Of a DNA stretch of 64,000 nucleotides, positions 21,075 to 37,079 are shown piece by piece (position 1 is the stretch's first letter; every line of letters starts with the position of its first letter). A model generated the notes under the pieces. The model was not told where the DNA came from and made no database searches. It saw only the letters and a list, made by a program, of their open reading frames with translations. Source of the DNA: Spongiibacter nanhainus (GTDB lineage Bacteria > Pseudomonadota > Gammaproteobacteria > Pseudomonadales > Spongiibacteraceae); the NCBI RefSeq assembly GCF_016132545.1, contig NZ_CP066167.1, positions 2,507,001 to 2,571,000 on the forward strand, written 5' to 3'. Both the position numbers and the translations under genes were made by a program.

Positions 21075-24000
21075 CTATTTAAAGTACCAGAAGGTACGTT
21101 CGCGGCGATTGTCCGCCGGCATCTCCGGCATGCTAGGATCAAAGGGAGATGGCCCAGCACCGCCAATAATAAAAGGCACGGTTTTGCCATCAATGGTTAC
21201 CAGACCCGCGATCGGTGATGGTGGCAAACCACCACCTGAGAAGATATTGCGCTGCGTCTCGCCCGTAAATAGATCTATAACGTAGGCTCCTGCATTGCCA
21301 AGATTTGCAGTACACGAGCCTTCAGCCGGGACATCCGGTTGGTTCGTCCCAAAGTAAACTTTACCACCCACCGTAAGAGGCGCATTGACTCCCTTTTCGC
21401 CCACCATCAAATTAATATAGTAACCGGCATAGGAATCCGACAAGCCATCGAAAAACAATGAGGTGGCACCTGCAGTATCACAACTAACCACATTCTCGTC
21501 GGCATCGAGACACTGAAGTGAACTCTGATTAACGAGATCTGCGGTATCGATGGGATCGGGGGCCGGGCTCGAAATCGCTTTACCGAGATTTTTATCCATA
21601 ATCACGTAAAAACGATTCTGGACGTTGTAAGCCCGACCGGCCGTGTTGTCGTCAGTGTAGAGTGGGTGCTCCCGGTCGCCGGATACGGCCACCACAGCAT
21701 CAAAGTTGTTAGTCGGCACCACATCGGGGCCAAACAAAAACTTCCTGGCATTATTGCCGCTACCACCGAGCTCCGCCAACTTACTGATCTGGAACTGGGA
21801 GAACGCGGTATCTGCTGGATCCTGAGTTTCCAGATCAATTCGCCAGATATTGCCGCCAACATCGGCGGCGTAAAGACGATCGGTAAAACCATCGAAGTCC
21901 CGATCCACCAAAGTAATATCCGCAGGAATCGCGCGGGTCAAGGACGCGGTCGCTTGGCAGTGCCCTCCGGCTGCGAGGGTAACGCCTGCGCAACTGGGCA
22001 CTGCCGTCCATAAGATTTTACCGCTAACTGAGTCAACAATGACAATGCCTCGACCCATCGTATTGGTGCCAGATGCGGGGTCGGCGTCCTCTGCTGGGTC
22101 ATAGCCCGCACCAAATACCAGAACAGGATTGTCGTAGCCCTTAATCTGGGTCACTTTGGGTTGCGACCAGGTTTGCCCCAATTCTGGAAGATCAGACGTG
22201 GTCAACCGCCACAAATACCGGGGACTAGTGGGGGTGGTAACGTCCATAGCATATATGAAACGGCCACCACGTCGTGCCGATAGGTAGATATATGCTTTGC
22301 CAGAGGTACTTGTTCCCTCGCGTTGATCCTGCAAGACCGTGGTTGTACCGTCGAAGAAATAATCCCGCCCTTCCGCATCAGGATCAATACTGGTGGGATA
22401 CTTCACAGCCGGGTTGTTGTTATAGAGTCTCTTAAGCTGGTCGAAAAATTCAGGGGCAACAAAACTCCACAACTCCCCCCCTGGCTGAACGTCACCAATG
22501 TTGGCCGTCTGATTACCGTTTATCGCACGGAAGTGCCCATCGTTGGAGCCATAGAACACCACAACCCCAGTGTTGCCACCGTAATTAATGACCGCCGGCC
22601 GAGAGTGCAACACGTCGCCGTGAATTGAGCCCCTAACACTGACTGGGCATTCGGCATCTCTGCTATTTGGGGGGCAAGGCCCGCGCTTGACTTCGTTACC
22701 GACGATATCATCGCCACGCATCCATTGGATAAGGTTGTCCGCAGTCAAAGTCACAGCGCTAGTACCACAGGTTACGTTCGCAGTCTCGGCAAGCACATAA
22801 TCCTGCAACGTCAGTTGATAGGTATCGTCATCGATAATTGCAGCCACGCTGCCCAAGACCGTACCTTCCAGTTCATCAATATTGTAGGTGTTGGTATTGT
22901 TTCCAACCGTGCAATTTTCCAGTTCAATTTGATCTCCCACCAATAGCCCATGGCCAGTTTGGGAAACCGTGGCAAGCCTGCTCACATCGACGATAACAGC
23001 ATTATTATATGAACCGTTATTTGGTATATCTTTGCTGGTCACATCAAAGGTGGAATCCGTAACACCTGATATAGAGCATGGCGCATCGAAGGTGCACACT
23101 TGCTTGTTCGCCGGCAGAACACTATTCCAGCCCCCGACAATCACCACCCTGTCGGTATTGGCATCTAGGTCGGTACCGCCAGAATTATCGTGGGTGACAG
23201 TACATTTTCGATTATTGCCGTTACCGCTACAGGAGGTAGAAATAGTTTCATTGGTATCATAACGCCCCACCGTAATCGAGGCACCGCCACCTGCCTGGGC
23301 TGCACCCAGTATCCCTTCCAATTTACTAACCAGTGTGGCGTTGTCACCGTCGAAATCCGGTAAGGCTGACCCTGTTGGGCAGGCACCGGTATCATTACAA
23401 GTATAGACAATGCGTCCATCAGAGCTGGTCAGATTTTGAATACGCTGAACCAGGCCAACACCGCCCTTTTCGACAAGGTCGCCATCAGGGGCATCATAGG
23501 TAAAGGCATCGCCCTCGGGGCTATTAATCCAGAAGCCCCCTGCTGGCCAATTAGCGACGGCAACCCCATTGCCATCAGTCGGTGAATTGGTTGTCCAAAA
23601 ACTGGTTGCGGTGCTGGCAATTGCCCCGGTCACCGGATTGGTTACAGACGTCACCGCGCCAGATACATCCTGGGTCGCGTCAGTAAGGACTATATTGCCA
23701 CCGGCATCAAAACCCAATTGATACTGTTTAACATTGCCATTCCAACGCGGTCCTGCAGTGGCATCGGGGCGGAACATGGCGATGTAAACCTGGTTTAAGA
23801 AGGTACCCTGAGTATTGGCGCTTACCGGCAACGTCGCCGAAGAGAACACACTATTGACATCCTGAACCTCGTTGAAGATCTGGATTAATATTTCCTGTAG
23901 TCCAGCGTGATTATCTGCGGTGACTTTAAATGCTTTACCGCCGCCCTCTGTGGCCATATCAGCAAGGAAGTTAATTTCACCGGCCAGCTTTTCTTCCAGG

Positions 24001-24902
24001 TCGGGTGCATACACCGCAATGGAATAGGTCGTGATATTTCTGTCCGATTGGGCGCTGTCCCCAACGTCGACCAGATTCATAAACCGCGTCCACTCATCGC
24101 CCCAGTATTTGTTGTTGGCCGAGCCCGAGTTATTAAGTAGAGTCACCGCCCGGGGAGTACTAAAAAACTCATATTTGGATGAGCCTTCCGCATAGCCAAA
24201 AGCACTGCTTAGCTGACTTAACAAGAGAGTGTCTGGGTTACCTGTGCCATCAGCGACGCTAGAATTTTCTTTAGTGGCATTTCCTATATAAACCAAGACA
24301 GCATCTCGACACTCTGTTGCCACTTCCGCGAGGCCAGAGTAGTCAACGCCAGAACAGGATGTACTAAGGCCATTTAACATAGCCCAACTTTCCGCCACCA
24401 AATCCCCAAGGCGCGACTGGTTCGCCAAGTCGTTCTTGTCAAACGCCTTGAGTTTGGAGACAAAACTGTTTATTGCTGGTTCTGTCATTAAAGCGGGACT
24501 TGAATACAGATAGCCGCAACGATTATTACCATTGCCTAAATCAGAGTCCCCACTAAAACCATTCTCATTAAATACCATCAAACCAACTTTGACCGCACCG
24601 AGAAGGTCACTGTTCGCATTTTTTAGCGACAGCATGGTATTCACCAAGGCACACTGCTCCATCCCTCCAACCGTGTCCCCCAGCTCCGGCGCTTGATTGG
24701 TGTCGCTGTAGACACAGCCATGAACCACATTGGCGTTAGAGTTGGCCGTGCTGTGCCAGCCCAACAGGACCGTCGGCGGGTTACCACCGCTAGGATTAAT
24801 CCCAGAAAACAGATCGATATCTTCGGCAACGACGCCTACCGATAAAACCGACATCGCTAGTAAAAAGCAACCAGCGCCTGCAATTAACTTGAACATTCTC
24901 AT
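21075..24902 (-). CDS. pilY1: PilY1-type pilus tip/assembly protein, second module
   Basis: A 1275-residue exported protein of the PilC/PilY1 family, which sits at the tip of type IV pili with the minor pilins and controls extension and adhesion. A signal peptide (LIAGAGCFLLAMSVLSVGVVA) is followed by a von Willebrand A-like region, then the C-terminal beta-propeller with a calcium loop (DRDFDGFTDRLYAAD, about residue 1000). In the vWA region the segment expected to hold the metal-site Asp reads VLLGWHSTANSNANV (45-59), so the MIDAS motif is lost. The C-terminus is FWYFK, unlike the paralogue. It is the last gene of the second minor-pilin set. Expect a disulfide-rich, secreted protein. Confidence 0.9.
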   Translation of the reverse strand: MRMFKLIAGAGCFLLAMSVLSVGVVAEDIDLFSGINPSGGNPPTVLLGWHSTANSNANVVHGCVYSDTNQAPELGDTVGGMEQCALVNTMLSLKNANSDLLGAVKVGLMVFNENGFSGDSDLGNGNNRCGYLYSSPALMTEPAINSFVSKLKAFDKNDLANQSRLGDLVAESWAMLNGLSTSCSGVDYSGLAEVATECRDAVLVYIGNATKENSSVADGTGNPDTLLLSQLSSAFGYAEGSSKYEFFSTPRAVTLLNNSGSANNKYWGDEWTRFMNLVDVGDSAQSDRNITTYSIAVYAPDLEEKLAGEINFLADMATEGGGKAFKVTADNHAGLQEILIQIFNEVQDVNSVFSSATLPVSANTQGTFLNQVYIAMFRPDATAGPRWNGNVKQYQLGFDAGGNIVLTDATQDVSGAVTSVTNPVTGAIASTATSFWTTNSPTDGNGVAVANWPAGGFWINSPEGDAFTYDAPDGDLVEKGGVGLVQRIQNLTSSDGRIVYTCNDTGACPTGSALPDFDGDNATLVSKLEGILGAAQAGGGASITVGRYDTNETISTSCSGNGNNRKCTVTHDNSGGTDLDANTDRVVIVGGWNSVLPANKQVCTFDAPCSISGVTDSTFDVTSKDIPNNGSYNNAVIVDVSRLATVSQTGHGLLVGDQIELENCTVGNNTNTYNIDELEGTVLGSVAAIIDDDTYQLTLQDYVLAETANVTCGTSAVTLTADNLIQWMRGDDIVGNEVKRGPCPPNSRDAECPVSVRGSIHGDVLHSRPAVINYGGNTGVVVFYGSNDGHFRAINGNQTANIGDVQPGGELWSFVAPEFFDQLKRLYNNNPAVKYPTSIDPDAEGRDYFFDGTTTVLQDQREGTSTSGKAYIYLSARRGGRFIYAMDVTTPTSPRYLWRLTTSDLPELGQTWSQPKVTQIKGYDNPVLVFGAGYDPAEDADPASGTNTMGRGIVIVDSVSGKILWTAVPSCAGVTLAAGGHCQATASLTRAIPADITLVDRDFDGFTDRLYAADVGGNIWRIDLETQDPADTAFSQFQISKLAELGGSGNNARKFLFGPDVVPTNNFDAVVAVSGDREHPLYTDDNTAGRAYNVQNRFYVIMDKNLGKAISSPAPDPIDTADLVNQSSLQCLDADENVVSCDTAGATSLFFDGLSDSYAGYYINLMVGEKGVNAPLTVGGKVYFGTNQPDVPAEGSCTANLGNAGAYVIDLFTGETQRNIFSGGGLPPSPIAGLVTIDGKTVPFIIGGAGPSPFDPSMPEMPADNRRERTFWYFK

Positions 24903-24942
24903 TGCGAAAACCTCGCCATAAGCTTGGTAGTGTGGGCTTCGA

Positions 24943-25521
24943 TTAGTTCAAACATGGCGTACCAACATAAGCCCGAATATATATACCCTGATGCATCGTT
25001 AAATTTGCACCTGTCTCAGTATCTGAGACGGCAGCACTTACATCCCAAGTCATTTTGGTGCATATAGAGTTCCCACTTGACACACCATCGTCGGACAACA
25101 AACCTGTATTTTGTTGACCTCCTCCGCTAACACAGAATTTGTCGTTATTCGATCGTTTAGGTTCTAACTCGGTAATTTTTACCGGAGCCACTCTGATACA
25201 CTTAGGTGGAGGGACTGTAGCCAACATTTCATTGACCCCGTCACCATCAAAATCTGCTCCAAACGTAGCGTCAGTTTCTGGTAGAGGTAGCGCGAAGTTT
25301 GCCGCATTACTTATATATGCCTCAATCCCATTCCTCGCCGCTGACTTGGCCTCCATCCGATACTGCTGATTGCCCGCGATCTTAAAATTGATGTTACTGC
25401 CACTCACCATGCTGAACACTATCACGCTAAATACTGCCAACATGATTAGCACCACAATCAGTACTACACCGGATTGCCGGCGGGAAGGGCCCGGTGCTGA
25501 GGGATATCGCTGATGTCTCAC
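24943..25521 (-). CDS. pilX: minor pilin PilX, second module
   Basis: A 192-residue pseudopilin of the PilX type. The leader ends at Gly (RRQSG), followed by a hydrophobic helix VVLIVVLIMLAVFSVIVFSM without the Glu5 of other pilins, as is usual for PilX and GspK. The next part (NFKIAGNQQYRMEAKSAARN) matches the PilX stalk. The start is a GTG that overlaps the pilW stop (GTGA), with AGGAG 8 bases upstream. It lies between pilW and pilY1 in the second module, as in Pseudomonas. Confidence 0.85.
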   Translation of the reverse strand: MRHQRYPSAPGPSRRQSGVVLIVVLIMLAVFSVIVFSMVSGSNINFKIAGNQQYRMEAKSAARNGIEAYISNAANFALPLPETDATFGADFDGDGVNEMLATVPPPKCIRVAPVKITELEPKRSNNDKFCVSGGGQQNTGLLSDDGVSSGNSICTKMTWDVSAAVSDTETGANLTMHQGIYIRAYVGTPCLN

Positions 25522-26615
25522 TCTCGCGCTCCTGCCACATTGGGCACCATTACCACAGTGCTGAATACCCGCCGCTGGTAGCCGTCATCCGGCGCGGTGA
25601 TGCGCTGGGCCCGACCCAAATCGTAGCTGCGGGTATCGGATTTATCGGTTGCGGCGCCTCCCCGTACCAGCAAAGCGATATTCACTGCCACCACATCCTC
25701 CCAGTTCTCCGCAGGCGTCGCCGACCAGTCTGCCGACGCGCACCCGGTAGTGGCGGTACTGGCTGCGGGGTTATCAGAATAGCAGTCCGGCGCGCCATCA
25801 CCACTCAAATCCAGGCCGTAGGAGAAATGCATGTCTTCTACGCCAGATACCAAGGGGCGGATACTGGCGGCGTTGTTGATAAATTCCCGGACTTTAAGCG
25901 TGGGAATACCGTCGCCGTCGCCACTACAGTCTTCACAACTGGAGAGAAAATAGGTTCGGGATACAAATGGCCACACTGGTACGATTGTCGCGCCAGCCAC
26001 CGGAGGGTTGAGACAGTCATTATCCCTTAACACAAAATCAGCGGGTGTTTTGCTAAACACAAATGGATTACTGTCGATCTCACAGTTCGATATTTGCAAA
26101 TAAGCCACGCCCGAAACCGCACTGGCGGCGGCGACAGAATCAGTCGCCACTCGTCGAATTACCAACGCCTCTGAACCCGATACGGCGTGGCCTTCGCCTG
26201 CATCTGTGCCGGCAATACAGTCCGGCAACGTCGCACCGGCAGCATAGCCTTGCACCGGGGCGGGCATGCTTGGCGTCGCGTTACTGAACCCAAAATCAGC
26301 GATGGCGGTATTTTCATCCATGCACGGGTCTGGGAGGGTGTAGGTGGCCACATTGGGCCCTGGGTGGTATTGGCCATAGAACCCCGCTAGCGCGATCTCT
26401 TCTTGGAACAGAAACGACGCGTAGCGGCCATTTTCGATTTGATCGGAGGTTTCCGCCAATTCAAAACGTGTTTTACTAACCGAAGACACCAAAGCAATAA
26501 TCCCCAACAGCATAAAGGCACCTAGCCCCAGGGATATCATTAGCTCGATTAGGGATACGCCCCGCTGGCAAGAGGCTTGGAATTGGAATCGGCGACGGGC
26601 CCAAGAATAAGACAT
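25518..26615 (-). CDS. pilW: minor pilin PilW, second module
   Basis: A 365-residue pseudopilin. The prepilin leader and helix are clear (CQRG then VSLIELMISLGLGAFMLLG, with Glu5), and the long cysteine-containing globular domain is typical of PilW. Its start codon overlaps the pilV stop (TAATG) and its stop overlaps the pilX GTG, so pilV-pilW-pilX are tightly coupled. PilW forms part of the priming complex at the pilus tip. A paralogue of 346 residues is present at 32.9-33.9 kb. Confidence 0.9.
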   Translation of the reverse strand: MSYSWARRRFQFQASCQRGVSLIELMISLGLGAFMLLGIIALVSSVSKTRFELAETSDQIENGRYASFLFQEEIALAGFYGQYHPGPNVATYTLPDPCMDENTAIADFGFSNATPSMPAPVQGYAAGATLPDCIAGTDAGEGHAVSGSEALVIRRVATDSVAAASAVSGVAYLQISNCEIDSNPFVFSKTPADFVLRDNDCLNPPVAGATIVPVWPFVSRTYFLSSCEDCSGDGDGIPTLKVREFINNAASIRPLVSGVEDMHFSYGLDLSGDGAPDCYSDNPAASTATTGCASADWSATPAENWEDVVAVNIALLVRGGAATDKSDTRSYDLGRAQRITAPDDGYQRRVFSTVVMVPNVAGARE

Positions 26616-27214
26616 TAGGTCAGATCCCCTATTCTGACAATCGCCGCTACCACCCGGCGGCGCTTCTCATCACCGTATTGGTCTTTGCCACAGAGGTTGT
26701 CTGCGGGAGGCGCTGCCGAGTCTGACATGCCCTGCCACGCCACAGTCACTCGGTAAAGCTGCTCTGCGGCGTTTACTTGTGTCACACACCCTCGCGCGCC
26801 GATCATGGCGCCAATGCTGTCATCGTCCTCGTTTTGAACACTGGAACCCAGTAACAGTTGGTGCCAGGCGGTCAAATCCTCGTCGGCGCGATCATTCAGG
26901 GATTGAGTACTGGCCGAAGCGCAGCCATCAACGCCCTCCTCGTAGTTTCCAGCCAGTGTCGCCCCGGCGCCCAGGTTGATACCGTTGGCGCCATTGGAAT
27001 AACAATCCACGACTAGGCGATTAGCCTGCATGCGATCGACCATATTCTGCACCAAATCCAAAGCCTGCAAACGTTGGTACGCCTCGACCTCCTGCTGCAC
27101 GGTTCTCACCAATAGGCCGGCCGCCCCCATCATGCCCACTAGCATAACCACAAGCGCCACGAGGAGCTCGATCAGGGTAAAGCCTCGCTGCTTACTTTGT
27201 TCGACCTTCAACAC
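26615..27214 (-). CDS. pilV: minor pilin PilV, second module
   Basis: A 199-residue type IV pseudopilin. After a short leader (KVEQSKQRG) comes the N-terminal helix FTLIELLVALVVMLVGMMGAAGL with Glu5, and then the PilV stalk ALDLVQNMVDRMQANR. No ATG is available before the helix: the start must be GTG 27214 or TTG 27211, just behind GGGAGGGAG and overlapping the fimT stop. I list GTG 27214; the TTG has the better spacing. A longer frame from a GTG at 27262 has no supporting ribosome-binding site. Confidence 0.86.
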   Translation of the reverse strand: MLKVEQSKQRGFTLIELLVALVVMLVGMMGAAGLLVRTVQQEVEAYQRLQALDLVQNMVDRMQANRLVVDCYSNGANGINLGAGATLAGNYEEGVDGCASASTQSLNDRADEDLTAWHQLLLGSSVQNEDDDSIGAMIGARGCVTQVNAAEQLYRVTVAWQGMSDSAAPPADNLCGKDQYGDEKRRRVVAAIVRIGDLT

Positions 27215-27672
27215 TCTCCCTCCCGCACTCGCGGCTTTCCGCTTAGAGAGACAGAAACACACCGACTGCGACTCGCCTCACCGGAGTCCGGCACCACATC
27301 AAACTCAACGGTAGCGTTAGATCGACCATCTGGAGTGTAATTGAGGCTATTGGCACTGCCTGTGATGGAGATCCCATTCACACCATCTTCAGACCGCAGA
27401 ACCGTTGCCGTCCCATCAATAGAGACAGTCCAACCCGCAGACCAACCTGCCGCCGCCTTCTCCAGCTTGATGGTTGCATTGCGCGTGACGGACTCGCTGC
27501 GGGCCAAATTAAGGGAATTGACCAGCGTATTACTGGCGCTTCTGACCCGCTGGGTCTCTATCAAGTTGTTGAAGGCAGGCGCAGCCAGGGTGGCCAATAT
27601 GGCTACGATCGCCAGGGTGACCAACAGTTCAAGGAGGGTGTATCCACGCATGGGCTGACTCACTCCCAGCAT
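27208..27672 (-). CDS. fimT: FimT/GspH-type pseudopilin, second module
   Basis: A 154-residue pseudopilin of the FimT/GspH family. It has a leader ending MRG, the helix [21 protein letters not shown], and the usual domain ([20 protein letters not shown]). The C-terminus reads [13 protein letters not shown]: the DNA-uptake GRxR motif of some FimT proteins appears only as GKPR. I use ATG 27672, which gives a 10-residue leader and overlaps pilE; ATG 27651 would leave a leader of only three residues. It opens the second module, overlapping pilE before it and pilV after it. Confidence 0.85.
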
Positions 27673-28076
27673 CGAGTCGCCCCCGCCGCGTGTCCTTTCA
27701 CTCCAGTGGAGCTAAGCGTCAGAGTCCCGCAATCGTCGCCGCTCTGAGAACCTTTCGGCGCCGCAGAAATCGAATAGGTAGGTGGCGTAGCGGCGTTATT
27801 GGCACTGGTCGTAAACGTGTAAAAATCGGTGATTTCGTTAGGGACTGTGGCACCCAGAGTCGCCATATCAGCCGCGTAGGCACGGTTATCCAGGAAAAAG
27901 CGCTCCTGAAGATTGGCAAGCTCCATAATAAAGCTGCTTGCGGCAGAGCGGCGACTGCGTTCTATGTATCCGTTGTAGGAAGGGATGGCCAAGGTGGCAA
28001 TGATGCCGATAATGGCCACTGTGATCATCAGCTCTATCAGCGTGAAACCCGCTGTATTCTTGTTTTTGACACTCAC
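27660..28076 (-). CDS. pilE: PilE-type minor pilin, second copy
   Basis: A 138-residue type IV pilin-like protein. The short leader NKNTAG is followed by [20 protein letters not shown], and the globular part ends in a cysteine pair (DDCGTLTL ... TRCWE) forming the usual D-loop. The start is GTG 28076. It is closely similar to the adjacent copy at 28.1-28.5 kb in helix and C-terminal pattern, so the two look like a tandem duplication. It joins the two minor-pilin modules. Confidence 0.85.
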
Positions 28077-28102
28077 AGACTGTCTCTAATTAGTTTTCCG
28101 GG

Positions 28103-28552
28103 TCACCTCCGCCAACAATCAGACAAGGATTTGGAGGAGCCGCCCGGTTTATTAACGATGGCGACCTGTCCGACCTCATCAAGCGTGAAGTCACCACAGG
28201 GGTCGTCAGCCATCAACCCAGTGCGCTGTGCCCGCAGTGTAAAACTATTCGCGGTCGGTGTTCCAGTCGGAGCGACAGTATAATAGGCGCTGCCGTTTTC
28301 CGGCACCTGCGAGGGATACACAGCAGGCAAGGTACTGCCGCCGGCCGTGGTGGTGTAGCGACCATTGGCCGAATAGTACCGCTCCAGCGCTTGCGCCCCG
28401 GTTAGCAGAGCATTGGTTGCCTCGTTGCGCCGGGACTTGGCGACGTACTCCTGATACGACGGATAGGCGAGCGCCGCCAATATGCCCACAATAGCAACGG
28501 TTATCATCAATTCAATCAGCGTAAACCCGGATTGACCTTGGTGAACTCTCAC
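28103..28552 (-). CDS. pilE: PilE-type minor pilin, first copy
   Basis: A 149-residue pilin-like protein with leader HQGQSG and helix [22 protein letters not shown], then [18 protein letters not shown] and [14 protein letters not shown], typical of PilE. The C-terminal cysteine pair is DDPCGDFTL ... LSDCWRR. The GTG start overlaps the pilY1 stop (GTGA), with GGAGG 9 bases upstream. As in Pseudomonas, pilE closes the fimT-pilV-pilW-pilX-pilY1 set, which supports this as the ancestral module. Confidence 0.9.
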
Positions 28553-31500
28553 TGCAGCTGCCTCCAGGACTGACGACCCAATTCCTGATCTCCATCGCCA
28601 GTTTCTGTAACCACACCAATAGAACCGCTGCTGCCAGATGTGTATTTATACTCTAGATCGCCAGCGCCGATGATCCCTGGCGTTTTGATCAGTTCTTCGC
28701 TGCCAATGCCGCTGACCGGGTAGTAGACACCCTTGTACAGTACTTTATCCAAGTCGTCTATTTTGCCATCACCATTAATATCCAGTACTGGATCGGCGAA
28801 AAGTCCACCGTTAAGAGCATCCAATTCCATCAGCCAGCTTCGCCCCCCAAAACCACACAAGTTCTCGTTGGGTATAATCGTGGCGAAGATGATCCGACCA
28901 TTTCGCAGCACTGGCCGTGAAACCGAGCGCTCCGCTTCCGCGCCATTTTCTGGCGATAGCAGTTCCAGTCTCCAACCATACTCGGGGAGATTGTCGGCGC
29001 TATTTGAGCTAACAATACGAACCTGAAAGTCTGTTGTAGTGTTGTCAGACAGGCTGCCCACTGCCTCGTAGACAATGGTTTGTTCAACAAGATCATCGCG
29101 ATCGACAACCGATCCGCTGTCTCTAATACCATAGAAGGCCTGAATCTGTGGAGACTCAGGGACCAACCCATCTGTCGTTTTAAAGTACTGCCCGGTTCCC
29201 ACATAAACCATGTAGCCGCCGTCGGGATGACGACCTACAGTTGGGCGACTAGTGATCGGCTGAGGATTATCGTCATCATCTACTGCCTTGAACATTGGTG
29301 CTGGTGATGAACCAGACTTATGAGATACAGCCCATTTACTGGAGCTGTTACCAGTAAGATCAAACTTCCAAAGATTGCCAGCCAAATCACCAGCATAAAC
29401 ATAATCTGTAATGCGATCACCGTCGACATCTACCGGTACCGGCGTTGCTAGACCATTGCCCGCCCCACTTAATTCCGTGTCGATGGCCTTTATTAAATCA
29501 CCCGTCGCCAAATCCACGACGAAGAGTTTTAGAGTGTCCCCGGATTTGTAGCCGTTACCAAACACTGCCACCCACTTGTCACCTGCATCCACTCTGGCAA
29601 TGGCGGGAGCACTCATAGCTACGCCCAGTTTATCGTCTGCATCATCAGCGGTGGTAAATTCCCACATCAAATCCCCCGCGGCCATCGAGTCTGGCGTGCC
29701 CACATCAATGGCATAGACGGCTCGGCCACCCGCACCCGTGGCACCAACCAATACTGTCGTCCAAGCGCCGTTGATATAGGCATCCAAAGCACGGGGTGAA
29801 CCGTCAACAAAGTATTGGTGGTCGTAATCCACATCAGCCAAATCTGCAAAATCGCTGTAGAGCGAACTGAGAACCACGGCAAAGCTCTCTTTACCAGTCT
29901 CTGCATCGAAGCCGTGCAGCATGCCATCATTCGCGCCGACATATATCATTGGGCTACGAGCAGCTTTTGCCTGCAGGTACGCAGAATACTTCGTGCCTTC
30001 GTCACCACCTAGCACGCTGTATCCATAATCCTCGCTAGTTCCTACAAAGAATGGGTCCGAATTAACGATGTCTCCCAGCAGGCCCTCTCGGGTACGAAAA
30101 GACGTACCCTCTTTACTCTTGTCACCGCGCAACCAATTGAGCAAGTCCTTACCATCGTCGTCGCTGCCGCCGTCATTCAGCGATGAACGTTGCCCGGCGG
30201 ACAAACTCTTCCAGTTACCGGTGGTAAAGGCGACGCCTTGCTTAGAAGTGCTTCCCGGATCGCCCACAAAAGTAAAGATAGACCGTGAACCATGGGCGGG
30301 TATACCACCTTTATTGGTGTCCCAGAAAACTTTATCCAGCGCACCGTTATCGGCTAGCGTGTAGGCAATGAGCCTACCTGTCCACTCCAAGCTGTTGAAG
30401 CTCGCTTGATAAACCAAAGTGCCAGAGTCCAAACGCGTCGAGTTTGCCGCAATTGCAGAGGCTGATGACTTACTTTCATTGGCAATGGTGTCCAGCACAC
30501 CGGATAGTTCTGCGGCAAACTGGTCAGGATTCGCCGCGCTGAAAAAGCCACCGCGACTGTTGACGCCAGCATGTAGTAAGTCATCAATTTTATTGATCTC
30601 CGCATCACCGGGATCTGGCCAGTTGATTTGCGCGCCTGTCGAGATTGCAGCAAACGCATCATCAGGATTGACGGTACCACTGACACCGAAGCCGACACCA
30701 AATGTGACCATGTGCTGCCAGAAAGCCGGATTTTTTTTGGTCACGAAAACCTGGTTATCGAGGTCATCTCGCAGATCGTTCTTCCAGTAATACATGGCGA
30801 CATCCGCCAGGGTATCGTCTTCATTATCCTTAAACGGTGATGCCGCCTTGTAAGTATAGGACTGCCCTGCAGGACCCGTATGACTTGGCTTGTCAGTGCC
30901 ATCATTGTTGTCACCGGGACCACCGCTTACGTTGCTACCTGACCAATAGCCATCCGTCATCAACACAGTATAGTTACGTCGACATATCAAGTGATCCTCA
31001 TCGACGTCGCTACCCGGCTCTTCGCCCCAGGGACCCCGGTTATCTTTGCGAGAATAGTATTCACCCACTTCGTTTAGTGCGGACCTGAGAGGAGTCCCCG
31101 CATTGGGTATATCACGCTTGTACAAGGAATCGTAGAAATTTTTTCTATCTTCGCCAGTAAACTTTCTTACGCCGTCCACAATCGCCGAATGATCTTTACC
31201 ATCGACATCGTGCTCACCTTGATTGATGCTGCCAAAGCCGACGCGCAAATCTCCGCTTTGGGTAGAAAACGCGTAGCCACTACCTGCTCTGGCAGTTAAA
31301 ACCCTGGAGCGGTAATAGGTGTACCAGTTAGCGAAATTCTGCAACTCCTCTTCATAGCTGCATGTGCTATTGTCGGCGTCTTCGCAATCGTCCCGATTTT
31401 CCCTGCCGTGACCTTTGTATGATGACTGAGTAATTTTTATCTCTACTTCATCAAAGTTATCCCAGTCCCAGCTGCTGCCACCGGTATGCCAGAAATACTT

Positions 31501-32355
31501 AGCGGGCCAGAATTTCTTGTTAGAGGTGCTATATGAGCATGAGCCGCTACTGTCGCAGTCGTACCAACGATTACTATTGAAACGCTCATTGGTGGTGGTC
31601 AGATTTCGACAATAGGCCTCGGAGCTACCCCCCGTGCGTTCCGGGTTATGGTAAGCGCACTTTGGATCAGCGTTAGGATAAAAGTTGCCATCATGCTTTA
31701 TCCATGGGTCATAAGTTACCCCTGGATCATAATATACCGTGTTGATCTGAGGTGACCTGGTTCGAGCATTATAAGCAGACTTATCATCTACTGTAGGCAC
31801 ATAATTGGAATAATCGCCGCTACCATAAACGTCGTCGGCACGCGGGAAGATATAGCGTGTATTGGCAAGCAAAATTTCGCCAGGCATCAACTCGAAGTGC
31901 ATAGAACCGGAATCATCCAGCATATACATAACATTCGGCGACGCACTTTGGGTCAAAAACAAGGGCTTTTGGGCGATATCACTACTTACCGGAACATCTG
32001 ACTCACAGTCCGCCTTTACGCCGATAACGGTAAACTTTGCCTGGCAATATTTTTCCTTTTTACCCAAATCCGAATTATCTACCCGCAAGATATTGCCCGA
32101 TGTGGAATAGGTTTTGGGAGGGCAAGCATGTTTTTTACTATTTTTCAGATCTACTTCAGCGATGCTATCTATCGAATCAAGGGAATCAAATACATAAGTG
32201 CGGACCTTGTTCTTTTTCCCGACGTAGGAATCGCTCTCCACTTTCACGGTGCAATCTTCAGCGTGAACGTACAGTGTCGTACATGCGCAACAAAAAACGA
32301 CAAAGAGACGCAACAAACTAGCCATCACTTTCTGAGCATATTTTTCCAGCAACAT
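28549..32355 (-). CDS. pilY1: PilY1 pilus tip adhesin, first module
   Basis: A 1268-residue PilY1 of Pseudomonas type. A signal segment ([19 protein letters not shown]) is followed by a vWA domain with an intact MIDAS start ([10 protein letters not shown], about residue 146), then the beta-propeller with a calcium loop ([16 protein letters not shown], about 975) and a second acidic loop [14 protein letters not shown]. The C-terminus is GRQSWRQLQ, as in P. aeruginosa PilY1. The ATG at 32355 has GAGG 6 bases upstream; an in-frame GTG at 32361 lies inside that site. It is followed with overlap by pilE. PilY1 acts at the pilus tip in attachment, twitching and surface sensing. Confidence 0.93.
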
Positions 32356-32369
32356 AGCCACCTCAATAC

Positions 32370-32909
32370 TTAGTCTGCACGTCTGTACGTTGTGCTTAAT
32401 ACCACCATGCTCCGCTCACTCGCACCATACCCCCTGGCCGTAACCCGATAGAAGCTGTCAGTGGGGATGGCACGGTCCGAGTCAAGAACTTCATTGGCGC
32501 CAACGACTTTCGTCATTTCCTCGATGATATACTCAGGTTGACGGGCAACATGGTCGATATTGTCCGTTAATACAAACCATCCCTTAGAGGCTTTATCTGT
32601 CCAATTCGGTTTGCTACAGGCTTTACGGTCATCGTCAGGATCAGGGCACGAAAGATAGAGCCCCTTACTTCCGTTAAAAGGCCCCACGGACACTTGGCTC
32701 AATACGGCCTCAGCCTCACGCAACCCTGCCTCCGCAGCCTGAAAAGCCACATTAACGTCCTTGGTGTTACCGGCCATCCGCTCTTGCAATGTCGCACTCT
32801 GCATTGACGCGACACTGATAACAGTAAGAATAAGAGTAAATACCAGCGCAACGATAAGAACGGCGCCGCCCTGCCCTTTCTGAGACCGGTATGCTGATCT
32901 GTAGCTCAT
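32370..32909 (-). CDS. pilX: minor pilin PilX, first module
   Basis: A 179-residue pseudopilin of the PilX type. The leader ends QKGQGG and the helix AVLIVALVFTLILTVISVAS lacks Glu5, as in PilX. The stalk ATLQERMAGNTKDVNVAFQAAEAGLREAE follows in the usual form, then a domain with two cysteines (LSCPDPDD, KACSKPN). Its ATG overlaps the pilW stop (ATGA), and pilY1 begins 14 bp later. Confidence 0.92.
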   Translation of the reverse strand: MSYRSAYRSQKGQGGAVLIVALVFTLILTVISVASMQSATLQERMAGNTKDVNVAFQAAEAGLREAEAVLSQVSVGPFNGSKGLYLSCPDPDDDRKACSKPNWTDKASKGWFVLTDNIDHVARQPEYIIEEMTKVVGANEVLDSDRAIPTDSFYRVTARGYGASERSMVVLSTTYRRAD

Positions 32910-33946
32910 GGCAGTTTATTCCTTACCGCGAATACACTGGTAAACACCTGGCGGAAGCGGCCATCCTGGTTGACGATCACATTGCCATCAGCATCCACTG
33001 TGCTCTGCGCCTGCGTGCTGCCGCTCGTGCCCACCACATTGGTGGAATTGGAAACTAATACCAACTCCACCCGCACACTCAAGGCTGCCTCCCAGTCCAC
33101 TACGCTGGCGGCATCGCGATATACATCTACTGAACGATCTCCGTCAGTGTCTTCACCGTAGGTCAACTGCAGGTCTTCAACGCCCTCCACCAGTTCTATC
33201 GCTGACGACATACTGCCACTGGAACCCACCGTTCGGCGCTCGACATACAGGCTATTTATCGGATCACCCGCAGACGTATCTCTGCCACTGTCGCGAACAA
33301 AAAAACGAATAGTTTCAAAAGCGAGAATTTCCGCATCCGCCCCGTAGACTTTACTCAGGCGGTTATCTGAGTTCATTTGCCCCTTAGAGTGAGTAAAGGT
33401 TGCTTTGCCCTCGCCCGGCCCCTTCGGCTGGTTAACGATGCGAAAAATATCGGCATTGAGGCAGTCGGTGATTAATACGTAATCCCCCTTCACCAAGCCG
33501 ATGGAATTGTCCTCAATCTGAACATTGGCATTATTGGGAGCGAGATTACCGGTAATTCGCATAAACTCATCCGAGCCGCGCTTGATCTCCAGGGTATCGG
33601 TACCAACAACGGCACTGAGGGCATTATTTTTGTCGACATCATTGCCTCCCACTAATGCAGTCGCCATGCTGAAATCAACGTTAGCAGCTGGGAGTGCGAT
33701 GTTATTGACAGGAATATTGCCCAGCGAGCTACAGCCCGCATACCCCGCCATGCGAATTTCCTGCCCCAGAAAACGCATGGCAAAGCGGGCGTTTTCTTGG
33801 ACCTGCGCCTGGGCATCCTGTATACGTGCGCTGGAGCTGGTACCGAGGAAAACCTGAATTATCGCCGCACTCAAGAACAGGCCCAGAGTGATGGATATCA
33901 TCAGCTCGACCAGACCAAAGCCCTGCTGCCTGTGCAATTGCCTCAT
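32906..33946 (-). CDS. pilW: minor pilin PilW, first module
   Basis: A 346-residue pseudopilin. Leader MRQLHRQQG, helix FGLVELMISITLGLFLSAAI with Glu5, and the PilW stalk QAQVQENARFAMRFLGQEIRMAGYAGC identify it. The start is 2 bp after the pilV stop, and the gene overlaps pilX at its end. It takes part in the tip priming complex with PilV, PilX and PilY1. A second, more divergent PilW is encoded at 25.5-26.6 kb. Confidence 0.93.
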   Translation of the reverse strand: MRQLHRQQGFGLVELMISITLGLFLSAAIIQVFLGTSSSARIQDAQAQVQENARFAMRFLGQEIRMAGYAGCSSLGNIPVNNIALPAANVDFSMATALVGGNDVDKNNALSAVVGTDTLEIKRGSDEFMRITGNLAPNNANVQIEDNSIGLVKGDYVLITDCLNADIFRIVNQPKGPGEGKATFTHSKGQMNSDNRLSKVYGADAEILAFETIRFFVRDSGRDTSAGDPINSLYVERRTVGSSGSMSSAIELVEGVEDLQLTYGEDTDGDRSVDVYRDAASVVDWEAALSVRVELVLVSNSTNVVGTSGSTQAQSTVDADGNVIVNQDGRFRQVFTSVFAVRNKLP

Positions 33947-33948
33947 TC

Positions 33949-34401
33949 CTAAAGCTCCGTCACAAACACAAAGGTTTGGTTATTATCTTGCTCTTCACCC
34001 TCGTCAGCGGGCTCGCGGGTTTCCGCTAAGCGCCCCTCATCCCACTGCAAGGTAATGGTGAACTGATTATCGCTACGGGCGACGCTCGCATCGCCGCCGG
34101 GGAGTCGACGACTTATCTCGAGCAACCATTCCTGTAGGTCAATCTGGTGGATGGCACTACCCTTTGGAGCATCGGCATCCATGGACAAATCATAACTGCC
34201 CGCCAGTGCCGCTGCGCGGTTGGCCCGCAACCTATCCGTGATATCGTTAGCTAAAAAAACGGCCGCAGAACGCGAAGTGGAAACTTGATTGAATTTTACC
34301 GCATTGAGCTGCATTGCTGCGGCCCCCAGTACCCCGGTGGCGGTAATGAGAATGGCGACCAAAACTTCAATGAGCGTAGAACCCACTTCCCTGTGTTTCA
34401 T
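33949..34401 (-). CDS. pilV: minor pilin PilV, first module
   Basis: A 150-residue pseudopilin with the leader MKHREVG and helix STLIEVLVAILITATGVLGA. The first mature residue is Ser, not the usual Phe, while Glu5 is kept. The PilV stalk AAVFLANDITDRLRANRAAA follows. I start at ATG 34401, which overlaps the fimT stop (ATGA) and has AAAGGG 8 bases upstream; ATG 34407 is an alternative two codons earlier. It sits between fimT and pilW in the first module. Confidence 0.88.
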   Translation of the reverse strand: MKHREVGSTLIEVLVAILITATGVLGAAAMQLNAVKFNQVSTSRSAAVFLANDITDRLRANRAAALAGSYDLSMDADAPKGSAIHQIDLQEWLLEISRRLPGGDASVARSDNQFTITLQWDEGRLAETREPADEGEEQDNNQTFVFVTEL

Positions 34402-34910
34402 GAACATGCCCTTTCGGTTACCGTGACCTGACCGGTCGCACTCAACCTTACATCCCTGTCTCTCGAGCATTTTGCCGGCTTCTGCGTACGGTAAGTAAAG
34501 GCGACGACTTCGGCAGGGCTGCTAAAGCCCTCGGCATCGAAGGCAATCGACGTCACCGCCGAACCGTTTCGGGCCGATGTCAGCTCGGCGCCGCCTTCCA
34601 GGCTACTAGCCTGCCTAATTAGCTCACCGACGTCAAAGCTGTCATTGTCATTGCTGTCAATCCAGGTCCGCCAGCCTCTGTCCCAAGAACCTCCTACTGC
34701 AGTGACCCGCACGGTTTCACCTCGGGCTACCGCCTCTGATCTGGCGTTCATCAGTGAGCGAGTCAGTGTCTGCACATCGGCACTGGCCCGGGCAGAGGCC
34801 AGAAAGGAGGCGAAATTGGGCGCGGCAACACCCAATAAAATAGCAACCACCGATAGGGTGACCATCAGCTCTATCAAGGTGTAGCCATGTACGTGCTGCG
34901 ATTCCATCAT
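34398..34910 (-). CDS. fimT: FimT/GspH-type pseudopilin, first module
   Basis: A 170-residue FimT/FimU-like pseudopilin heading the first module. The leader is MMESQHVHG and the helix YTLIELMVTLSVVAILLGVAAP; the stalk LTRSLMNARSEAVARGETVRV is characteristic of the GspH domain. The C-terminus SATGQVTVTERACS has no GRxR motif. The start is an ATG-ATG pair at 34910. In Pseudomonas this position is taken by fimU, and fimT lies before it. Here the other candidate is the divergent gene at 35.1 kb. Confidence 0.87.
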   Translation of the reverse strand: MMESQHVHGYTLIELMVTLSVVAILLGVAAPNFASFLASARASADVQTLTRSLMNARSEAVARGETVRVTAVGGSWDRGWRTWIDSNDNDSFDVGELIRQASSLEGGAELTSARNGSAVTSIAFDAEGFSSPAEVVAFTYRTQKPAKCSRDRDVRLSATGQVTVTERACS

Positions 34911-35095: not shown

Positions 35096-35608
35096 ATGCA
35101 GACCAAAGGAACGACTCTGATTGAGTTGGTGGTCACTCTGGCTATCGTTGCCATCCTGGCGATGACGGCCGTGCCCGCCTTTACCACGCTCATTAAACAA
35201 CATGCCATCCACAGTGCCGGGCGAGACTTGCATCGCGCCTTCAACACCACCAGAGCCACAGCAATCATGCGACAGCGCCCGGTTGCCCTCTCCAACCTGG
35301 ACGGCAATTGGTCCAACGGCATGGCAATTTTCCTAGACGACAATAGTAACGGTAGCCTCGACAAAGGCGAGGAGGTACTGCGCCGCTTCAATGGGCTGGG
35401 TAGGGTATCTGCGACGGGGAATTACTGGGTCAGCGACTACGCCTTGTTCCACTCAGACGGCAGCGCCAAAGCCGCCAGCGGCGCATTTCAAGCCGGCACC
35501 GTGTCGGTGTGCAAAACCAATGTGGAAAACGGTTACAAGCTGGTACTGAGTATCGGCGGCCGGGTGCGCCTGGAAAAGACACATTTTGGATCGTGTCCAG
35601 GTAAATAG
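35096..35608 (+). CDS. fimT: divergent FimT-type pseudopilin with GRxR motif
   Basis: A 170-residue FimT/GspH pseudopilin on the strand opposite to the pilin modules. The leader MQTKG is followed by [20 protein letters not shown]; residue 1 of the mature form is Thr instead of Phe, Glu5 is kept. The stalk is GRDLHRAFNTTRATAIMRQRPVAL. Near the C-terminus lies GRVR (residues 155-158) before LEKTHFGSC. A C-terminal GRxR motif is the DNA-binding signature of FimT proteins needed for natural transformation; neither of the two FimT genes in the pilin modules has it. The ribosome-binding site AAAGGA is 8 bases before the ATG. It faces ispH tail to tail. Confidence 0.87.
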   Translation: MQTKGTTLIELVVTLAIVAILAMTAVPAFTTLIKQHAIHSAGRDLHRAFNTTRATAIMRQRPVALSNLDGNWSNGMAIFLDDNSNGSLDKGEEVLRRFNGLGRVSATGNYWVSDYALFHSDGSAKAASGAFQAGTVSVCKTNVENGYKLVLSIGGRVRLEKTHFGSCPGK

Positions 35609-35629: not shown

Positions 35630-36598
35630 CTAGGATGCTTCGACCCAGCGCAGCTCTTTGGGGAGGGAAAAGGTAATGTTTTCTTCCCTGCCAGCCAGCT
35701 CCTTAGGAGAGCGAGCACCCAACTGGCAAAGTCGATCGATCACTGCCTTAACCAGCACCTCGGGTGCCGATGCGCCTGCGGTAATACCGATCCGAGGACT
35801 ACCCTTCAGCCATGCCGGGTCTATATCCTGGTCATTATCGATGAGATAGGCCCGGCAGCCTCGCCGTTCCGCCAACTCCCGCAGGCGGTTGGAATTAGAA
35901 CTGTTTGGCGATCCCACCACCAAAACCACGTCGACTTCACCAGCCAGCTCTTTAACGGCATCCTGGCGATTCTGAGTGGCGTAGCAAATGTCGTCTTTTC
36001 GCGGCCCCTGTATGGCCGGGAATTTCTGGCGCAGAGCATCGATGACGTTGGCGGTGTCGTCCATGGATAAAGTGGTCTGTGTGACGTAGGCCAAATGCTC
36101 CGGGTCCTTCACTTGCAGTGCCAAAGCCTGCTCAACATCCTCCACCAGGTAGATCTGTCCGCCCATTGCGCTATCGTACTGGCCCATAGTGCCTTCCACC
36201 TCAGGGTGACCGGCATGACCAATCAGCACGCACTCTTTGCCGTCGCGGCTATAATTGACCACCTCCACATGCACCTTGGTCACCAGCGGGCAGGTGGCAT
36301 CAAACACCTTCAATCCGCGACGCTCGGCCTCTTTGCGCACCGCCTGGGACACGCCGTGGGCACTGAATATGACAATGGTATCGTCGGGCACTTCATCCAG
36401 TTCATCGACGAAGATGGCGCCGCGATCCCGCAAGTTTTCCACCACAAACTTGTTGTGTACCACTTCGTGGCGAACGTAAATCGGCGCGCCGAACACGTCT
36501 AGCGCGCGGTTGACGATTTCGATAGCGCGGTCCACGCCTGCGCAAAAACCGCGGGGGTTGGCCAGCGTTATGGACATATTGGTGGAATCTGTACTCAT
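35630..36598 (-). CDS. ispH: 4-hydroxy-3-methylbut-2-enyl diphosphate reductase
   Basis: A 322-residue iron-sulfur enzyme (LytB) that performs the last step of the MEP pathway, making isopentenyl and dimethylallyl diphosphate. The three cluster cysteines are visible in [12 protein letters not shown] (C19), [11 protein letters not shown] and [11 protein letters not shown], and the active-site stretch VEGTMGQ is present. The ATG at 36598 follows the fkpB stop by 10 bp, with GAGAG upstream. It is the last gene of ribF-ileS-lspA-fkpB-ispH. The same arrangement before the pilin locus is known from Pseudomonas. Confidence 0.96.
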
Positions 36599-36608
36599 GG
36601 GCTCTCGT

Positions 36609-37079
36609 TTAGCCTCCACTACCGGGCTTGGCCACTTCACCCTGCACCTTCACATCGATAATTTCAACGACGAAATCCAATTCGCGCCCCGCCAAAGGGT
36701 GATTAAAATCCACCTCGACATGCTCGGCATCGAATGATGCAACCACGCCCGGCAGCTCAGATTGGGCGGCATCGGCAAAGGACAGCATTAGCCCCTCTTC
36801 CAGCTCCAGATCGGCGGCAAAGTCACTGCGGGCAAAACGCTGAATGTTGTTGGGGTTGCGCTGGCCGAAAGCGTCCTCTGGCATTAACCGCAAGGTGGCT
36901 TTAGCACCGGGCGTCATCCCCACCAGCTTGGCTTCAACGCCGGGTAGCAAACTGCCATCACCAAAGCTAAAGGTTGCCGGGGCCCGGGAGAAGGTGGAAT
37001 CCACTTCGCTGCCGTCATCCAGCTTTAGCGCGAAATGTAACGTAATTTGAGTATCGGGTCCGATAGCGCAATCAGTCAT
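36609..37079 (-). CDS. fkpB: FKBP-type peptidyl-prolyl isomerase FkpB (SlpA)
   Basis: A 156-residue cytoplasmic FKBP isomerase and chaperone. Motifs: [19 protein letters not shown] at the start, [19 protein letters not shown], an inserted flap domain in the middle, and [19 protein letters not shown] at the end. The ATG overlaps the lspA stop (ATGA). The lspA-fkpB-ispH order is conserved in gammaproteobacteria. The C-terminus (KPGSGG) is slightly longer than in E. coli SlpA. Confidence 0.93.

Follow-up and report, generated by a model that had tools for sequence, protein, structure and literature searches.

A probable FimT minor pilin as a candidate for DNA uptake beside two type IV minor-pilin modules of Spongiibacter nanhainus

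A gene that adjoins two type IV minor-pilin modules in Spongiibacter nanhainus probably encodes FimT, a type IVa minor pilin for DNA uptake, as judged by sequence comparison. The gene lies within a stretch of 64,000 nucleotides, here called the window, which spans positions 2507001–2571000 of a single-contig genome of 4.08 Mb. The original prediction had placed it at 35096–35608 on the plus strand, with a GRVR motif at residues 155–158, and both statements were confirmed from the sequence. Its reading of the gene as FimT-type is supported by conservation and synteny and, less firmly, by phylogeny. Most likely, this fimT is a further member of the FimT DNA-uptake pilins described in Legionella, Xylella and Vibrio. 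DNA binding, a position at the pilus tip and a role in transformation are putative properties of its product, and the term 'specialised' for DNA uptake would carry over by analogy from Legionella, Xylella, Acinetobacter and Vibrio.

The fimT gene and its minor-pilin locus

The fimT product has a type III prepilin leader, with glycine at position −1 (G5|T6) and glutamate at mature position +5 (E10), and it matches Pfam GspH (PF12019) across residues 42–155 (4.2e-15). It scores 20.6 bits with NCBIfam TIGR02532, above the cut-off of 16.3, and 20.7 bits with Pfam N_methyl, slightly below the cut-off of 21.2. A disulphide between Cys139 and Cys167 is probable by analogy with FimU of P. aeruginosa (PMC8897410). 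A scan for promoters and terminators around fimT found 0 and 0, with averages of 0.6 and 0.9 in shuffled sequences.

The two minor-pilin modules occupy 21075–34910 on the minus strand, with fimT on the plus strand past fimU (Table 1). Module 1 comprises fimU, pilV, pilW, pilX, pilY1 and pilE; it is followed by a second pilE and then by module 2, which comprises fimT2 (a name coined here), pilV2, a pilW2-like gene, a pilX2-like gene and a second PilY1-like gene. The name pilE for both PF16732 pilins is our assumption from position and family knowledge. These tandem PilE-type pilins (27660–28552, minus strand) also both match Pfam ComP_DUS, a model that we take as broad, and the matches are not counted as evidence for uptake-sequence binding. 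The gene convergent with fimT we take to be ispH.

Table 1. Features of the fimT locus, in coordinates of the window
Feature	Coordinates	Strand	Evidence or remark
fimT, GspH/FimT-family minor pilin, candidate DNA-binding pilin, 170 aa	35096–35608	+	ATG to TAG
Prepilin peptidase site Gly5|Thr6, mature +1 = Thr	35108–35113	+	sequence
Cys139 codon	35510–35512	+	invariant across all 25 aligned sequences
GRVR motif, residues 155–158	35558–35569	+	aligns with R146/R148 of Legionella FimT
Cys167 codon	35594–35596	+	candidate disulphide partner of Cys139
ispH (presumed), convergent with fimT, 21 bp between	35630–36640	-	conserved neighbour
fimU, GspH-family minor pilin, first gene of module 1	34398–34910	-	GQVT at motif place
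pilV, start probably inner ATG	33949–34470	-	TIGR02523 1.1e-22
pilW	32906–33946	-	PF16074 1.1e-19
pilX	32370–32909	-	PF14341, PF13681
pilY1 of module 1	28549–32361	-	PF05567 1.3e-53
pilE-type pilin	28103–28552	-	PF16732
Second pilE-type pilin	27660–28076	-	PF16732
fimT2, GspH-family pilin heading module 2	27208–27672	-	GKPR at 27229–27240
pilV2	26615–27262	-	TIGR02523 1.5e-18
pilW2-like pilin	25518–26615	-	48 bits to window PilW; without NCBIfam match
pilX2-like pilin	24943–25521	-	position; GspK-type N-terminus match 4e-07
Second PilY1/PilC-like tip protein	21075–24902	-	weak match NF040838 2.2e-05 and position

The window holds three FimT/FimU-type genes; outside it, the genome has a fourth gene of the GspH family at 2392393–2392710, among pseudopilin-like ORFs. 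A FimU is recognized as the first gene of a pilV operon lacking the two arginines, a place held here by the gene at 34398–34910 and not by fimT; the FimU of P. aeruginosa presumably heads the pilVWX operon in the same way. A GspH of type II secretion would belong to a gsp operon; fimT instead adjoins genes for type IV minor pilins, and ispH. At the position aligned with the motif, the three genes of the window read GRVR (fimT), GQVT (fimU) and GKPR (fimT2). The claim that only fimT carries the motif therefore holds for strict GRxR, but not for the wider pattern G-[R/K]-x-[R/K] described in PMC12040237, which GKPR of fimT2 fits.

Taken alone, the motif is weak evidence, since GRxR arose in 7.5% of shuffles of the fimT soluble domain when sought anywhere and in 1.3% when sought inside the last 25 residues. 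Net charge was also rejected as a general mark of fimT: the soluble domain of the window's FimT is basic (+6.2, pI 9.7; FimU −1.2, FimT2 −0.2), but the fimT group is near neutral (median +0.2, n = 21) and the FimT2 group more basic (median +2.4, n = 12). Over the last 30 residues of the window proteins, FimU carries more charge than FimT (+3.7 against +2.5). Charge is thus little informative, and the conserved arginine pair carries the argument.

Conservation of the arginine pair and of gene order

A protein search of 145 genomes gave matches in 127, paralogs counted in. Gene order was compared in 18 genomes from the genus, among them the window's own, and in three from a sister genus, using 19 kb from each and 24 kb for the window. 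The gene fimT is present in all 21 genomes and carries GRxR in every one; the minor-pilin operon always lies on the other strand, and fimT is never the first gene of a pilVWX operon. Within the genus, it converges directly on ispH in 17 of 18 genomes, and a pilY1 intervenes in the remaining one; ispH was not seen in any of the three sister-genus stretches. An additional PilY1-like gene separates fimT from ispH in Spongiibacter thalassae (L126, G001; likewise L045). The convergent arrangement also occurs in Thiobacillus and one Pseudomonadota bacterium (L060, L063, L064, L068, L112), and the fimT–ispH pair is therefore either old or has moved between classes.

The other two GspH-type genes are less steady companions, both having been sought inside the 19–24-kb stretches, where 'not seen' does not mean absence from the genome. 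FimU was seen in 16 of the 21 stretches, with neither GRxR nor G-[R/K]-x-[R/K] in any of the 16. FimT2 was visible in 12 of the 21; three of these carry GRxR and five the wide motif (GKPR of the window included). All nine stretches without visible fimT2 keep fimT, which suggests that fimT goes with module 1. The five stretches in which FimU was not seen comprise two of the 18 from the genus (L131, L137) and all three from the sister genus (L143, L144, L145); there, fimU appears to be missing from the head of the pilV operon, and fimT is the only visible GspH-type pilin adjoining pilV.

Conservation was assessed in an alignment of 25 sequences, consisting of the window protein and 24 of 30 loci (one of the 30, L009, being the window), the relatives being 29–48% identical to the window protein. 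Nine of the 136 soluble-domain columns are invariant, among them G155, R156 and R158, and residue 157, between both arginines, is variable. Loci L033, L035, L036, L037 and L038 were left out on account of a partial match, a stop codon in the match or a FimU-like place; L036 and L037 have GRLR, and the other three are without GRxR. At the level of sequence, it is this conservation of G155, R156 and R158, and not the occurrence of the motif, that is strong evidence. The other alignments, of 16, 48 and 35 sequences (window included), were hand-picked from the loci for spread. The threonine at mature position +1, which had been read as a sign of specialisation because it replaces Phe1, is real but not diagnostic and was dropped as such a sign, since this residue varies among the 21 fimT orthologs, window included (M in seven, F in four, T, V and K in three each, Y in one).

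Relation to known FimT and FimU proteins

In L. pneumophila, FimT binds DNA via C-terminal arginines that include R146 and R148 of its GRxR motif (Braus et al., PMC8897410). The same report describes DNA binding by FimT of P. aeruginosa and X. campestris, and its accounts of FimU describe none, except very weakly for FimU of X. campestris. Among the three FimT paralogs in Xylella, FimT3, which has GRxR, was the only one to bind DNA in the assays described by Merfa et al. (PMC9956873); FimT3 is reported there as required only for competence, with R160 and R162 contributing to DNA binding. In the same study, loss of FimT1 lowered competence and movement, and competence rose on loss of FimT2. Christman and Dalia (PMC12040237) widened the motif to G-[R/K]-x-[R/K] and describe it as critical in V. 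cholerae; according to their report, ComGD of S. pneumoniae keeps the same kind of motif, where it matters little.

The placement of GRVR within the DNA-binding region, on which the original prediction depended, agrees with a soluble-domain profile alignment that sets R156/R158 on R146/R148, and GRVR on GRVR, of Legionella FimT (7qyi; residue numbers taken from the construct 28–152 of PMC8897410), in a match that is weak as a whole (E 0.29). The full-length profile also matched 7qyi weakly (E 0.097), and the FimU structure 4ipu at E 1e-08; a PDB search with the window protein alone chiefly picked up the N-terminal helix of pilins and matched FimU weakly (E 0.028). The predicted structure (pLDDT 90.5) has the GspH/FimT fold, with GRVR between its last two predicted strands, 145–151 and 157–163, and running into the latter. 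Its nearest solved fold is FimU of P. aeruginosa (4ipu, Z 17.3); comparison with the type II secretion pseudopilins GspH, EpsH and XcpH gave Z 8.9–11.4, and comparison with Legionella FimT gave Z 9.5 (rmsd 3.1 over 111 residues), the aligned part ending at residue 154, just before the motif.

Each of the proven systems resembles the window in part. Legionella FimT (lpg1428) shares the GspH type of minor pilin, GRVR at the aligned place and the fold, but it is described as an orphan gene without a D-region disulphide (PMC8897410), whereas fimT of the window lies in a minor-pilin locus and its product has both cysteines. FimT3 of Xylella fastidiosa is likewise one of three paralogs, has GRxR and comes from a genome in which minor-pilin sets are duplicated (PMC9956873); it belongs to another family, the Xanthomonadaceae, and in the window one further paralog has GKPR. 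In V. cholerae, VC0858 (FimT) likewise has the motif, as R154/K156, which is reported as required for DNA binding; unlike the layout of the window, its gene lies in a single minor-pilin operon, and it is needed for assembly too (PMC12040237).

The phylogenetic tree comprised 86 rows, none of them from Legionella, Xylella or Acinetobacter. On one side of a branch with SH-aLRT 91 (not starred), fimT stands with Pseudomonas-type FimT in a group of 34 rows: 21 fimT of Spongiibacteraceae (window included), two of another family, nine ispH-linked rows (Pseudomonas, Stutzerimonas and one gamma proteobacterium) and two FimU-linked Pseudomonas-type FimT of genomes taken as Pseudomonas, both genes presumably neighbouring thiO. 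FimU (16 rows) and FimT2 (12 rows) form separate starred sets (98). A tree joining fimT with FimU was not rejected (p-AU 0.33), and the deep split between the two is therefore supported, not proven. Many of the Pseudomonas and Stutzerimonas FimT genes on the same side lie between fimU or the pilin operon and ispH, as here; their products are 29–48% identical to the window protein, and those of a presumed fluorescens-type lineage mostly lack the second arginine.

These comparisons bear on a second possible reading, that the gene encodes another FimU-like pilin, an adaptor or primer for pilus assembly and motility, its arginines serving pilin packing and not DNA. Such a role would fit the FimU structure as the closest solved fold and profile match, and the requirement of V. 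cholerae FimT itself for pilus assembly (PMC12040237); moreover, fimT might replace FimU in the five stretches where it adjoins pilV and no FimU is visible. We nonetheless consider it unlikely, given that FimU stands beside fimT in the other 16 stretches with the two arginines in none, and that a variable residue separates two invariant arginines. FimU of P. aeruginosa, which shares D-region cysteines with FimT of the window in addition to the fold, reads GRIQ instead of GRVR at the motif place and did not bind DNA in the assays of PMC8897410. Other GspH-type matches occur elsewhere in the sister-genus genomes, and FimU may exist there.

It is improbable that the DNA receptor is instead FimT2 of module 2, or that FimT and FimT2 each serve a different tip complex. 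GKPR fits the widened motif (PMC12040237), and FimT2 soluble domains are often basic, as their median charge indicates; however, that of the window is near neutral, and both other FimT paralogs of Xylella are described as lacking DNA binding (PMC9956873). At the motif place, FimT2 orthologs vary, with GRPR in three relatives, GKAR in one, and GKPS, GSTI and others elsewhere; the motif thus drifts in FimT2, and its presence in so few of the FimT2 seen argues that there is no steady constraint.

Competence genes and motif loss in Pseudomonas

The genome search proposed with the original prediction found a comEA-type gene, comEC and dprA all present. ComEC (TIGR00361) and DprA (TIGR00732) score above cut-off, and a ComEA-type protein, the N-terminus of which resembles a signal peptide, scores above the cut-off of TIGR00426 and below that of TIGR01259. 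The genome also encodes four PilT-family ATPases above cut-off, a ComM-family protein and a ComF-like protein below cut-off (121.7 bits). Such genes are common in the 14 control genomes, which gave matches to ComEC in 10, HHH_3 in 11, DprA in 11, PilT-family in 13, ComM-family in 14 and ComF in 14, the last three above cut-off in five, eight and two. Because most control genomes match ComEC, HHH_3 and DprA too, the competence genes were discarded as strong support, and they only remove an objection.

With fimT read as a DNA-uptake pilin, prepilin peptidase would cleave the product after Gly5, and FimT would enter the tip complex of the neighbouring PilV, PilW, PilX and PilY1, where the loop and last strand with Gly-Arg-Val-Arg may offer two arginines to the DNA backbone. 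PilT-driven retraction would then pull DNA through the outer-membrane pore, ComEA would retain it in the periplasm, and ComEC would move it inward. That the gene is a true FimT in a bacterium that has lost transformation, and so a relic or a protein for DNA-mediated adhesion or biofilm binding, is highly improbable. In its favour, the competence genes are widespread and prove little, and in one Pseudomonas lineage the gene has stayed in place with an altered motif; against it, a motif intact in 20 of 20 relatives at only 34–48% identity argues for present use.

That altered motif was followed in 119 sampled genomes of one family, probably the Pseudomonadaceae to judge from matches to named Stutzerimonas and Pseudomonas loci. 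A Pseudomonas FimT was matched at E 1e-15 in 47 of them, by one gene per genome. A regular expression applied to the last 60 residues scored the first arginine in all 47 genes and GRxR in 40; the second arginine is absent from all five members of genus code g54, from one of two of g22 and from the single member of g89. By sequence likeness, g54 is probably the same fluorescens-type lineage. Both named Stutzerimonas loci have GGRLR, and one member of g22 matches Stutzerimonas, the other being the one without the second arginine. In a clade of 14 named loci (13 Pseudomonas and one gamma proteobacterium), 13 are without the second arginine, three of them also without the first. The ispH-linked fluorescens-type fimT keeps its place with the second arginine lost in L058, L061, L062, L095, L097–L101, L106, L113, L117 and L118, and in L146–L150; in L095, L097 and L101, the first arginine of GRxR is gone as well. 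A separate set of 80 loci was collected with two search patterns. Since GRxR forms part of one of these patterns, motif counts on the set are biased and are not main evidence; GRxR was scored by regular expression in 51 of its 72 fimT-labelled rows, with at least one false match in an over-long ORF (L086).

A wider proposition, speculative and rather unlikely, is that two DNA-gripping minor pilins serve two tips (FimT with GRVR for module 1, FimT2 with GKPR for module 2), and that the second arginine of FimT across Pseudomonadaceae marks DNA uptake still practised and was lost in the fluorescens-type lineage. A literature search combining FimT, Pseudomonas fluorescens and natural transformation returned no title on the subject, and a search for natural-transformation studies of Spongiibacteraceae, Zhongshania or Spongiibacter found none among the papers searched; the family is named in one of them, there for a gene match only.

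Reading this gene as FimT would extend a proven type of DNA-receptor pilin to the Spongiibacteraceae, a marine bacterial family. The comparison shows strict retention of both arginines, the second of which is mostly lost in one Pseudomonas lineage; given that loss, the FimT sequence could serve as a simple marker of competence.
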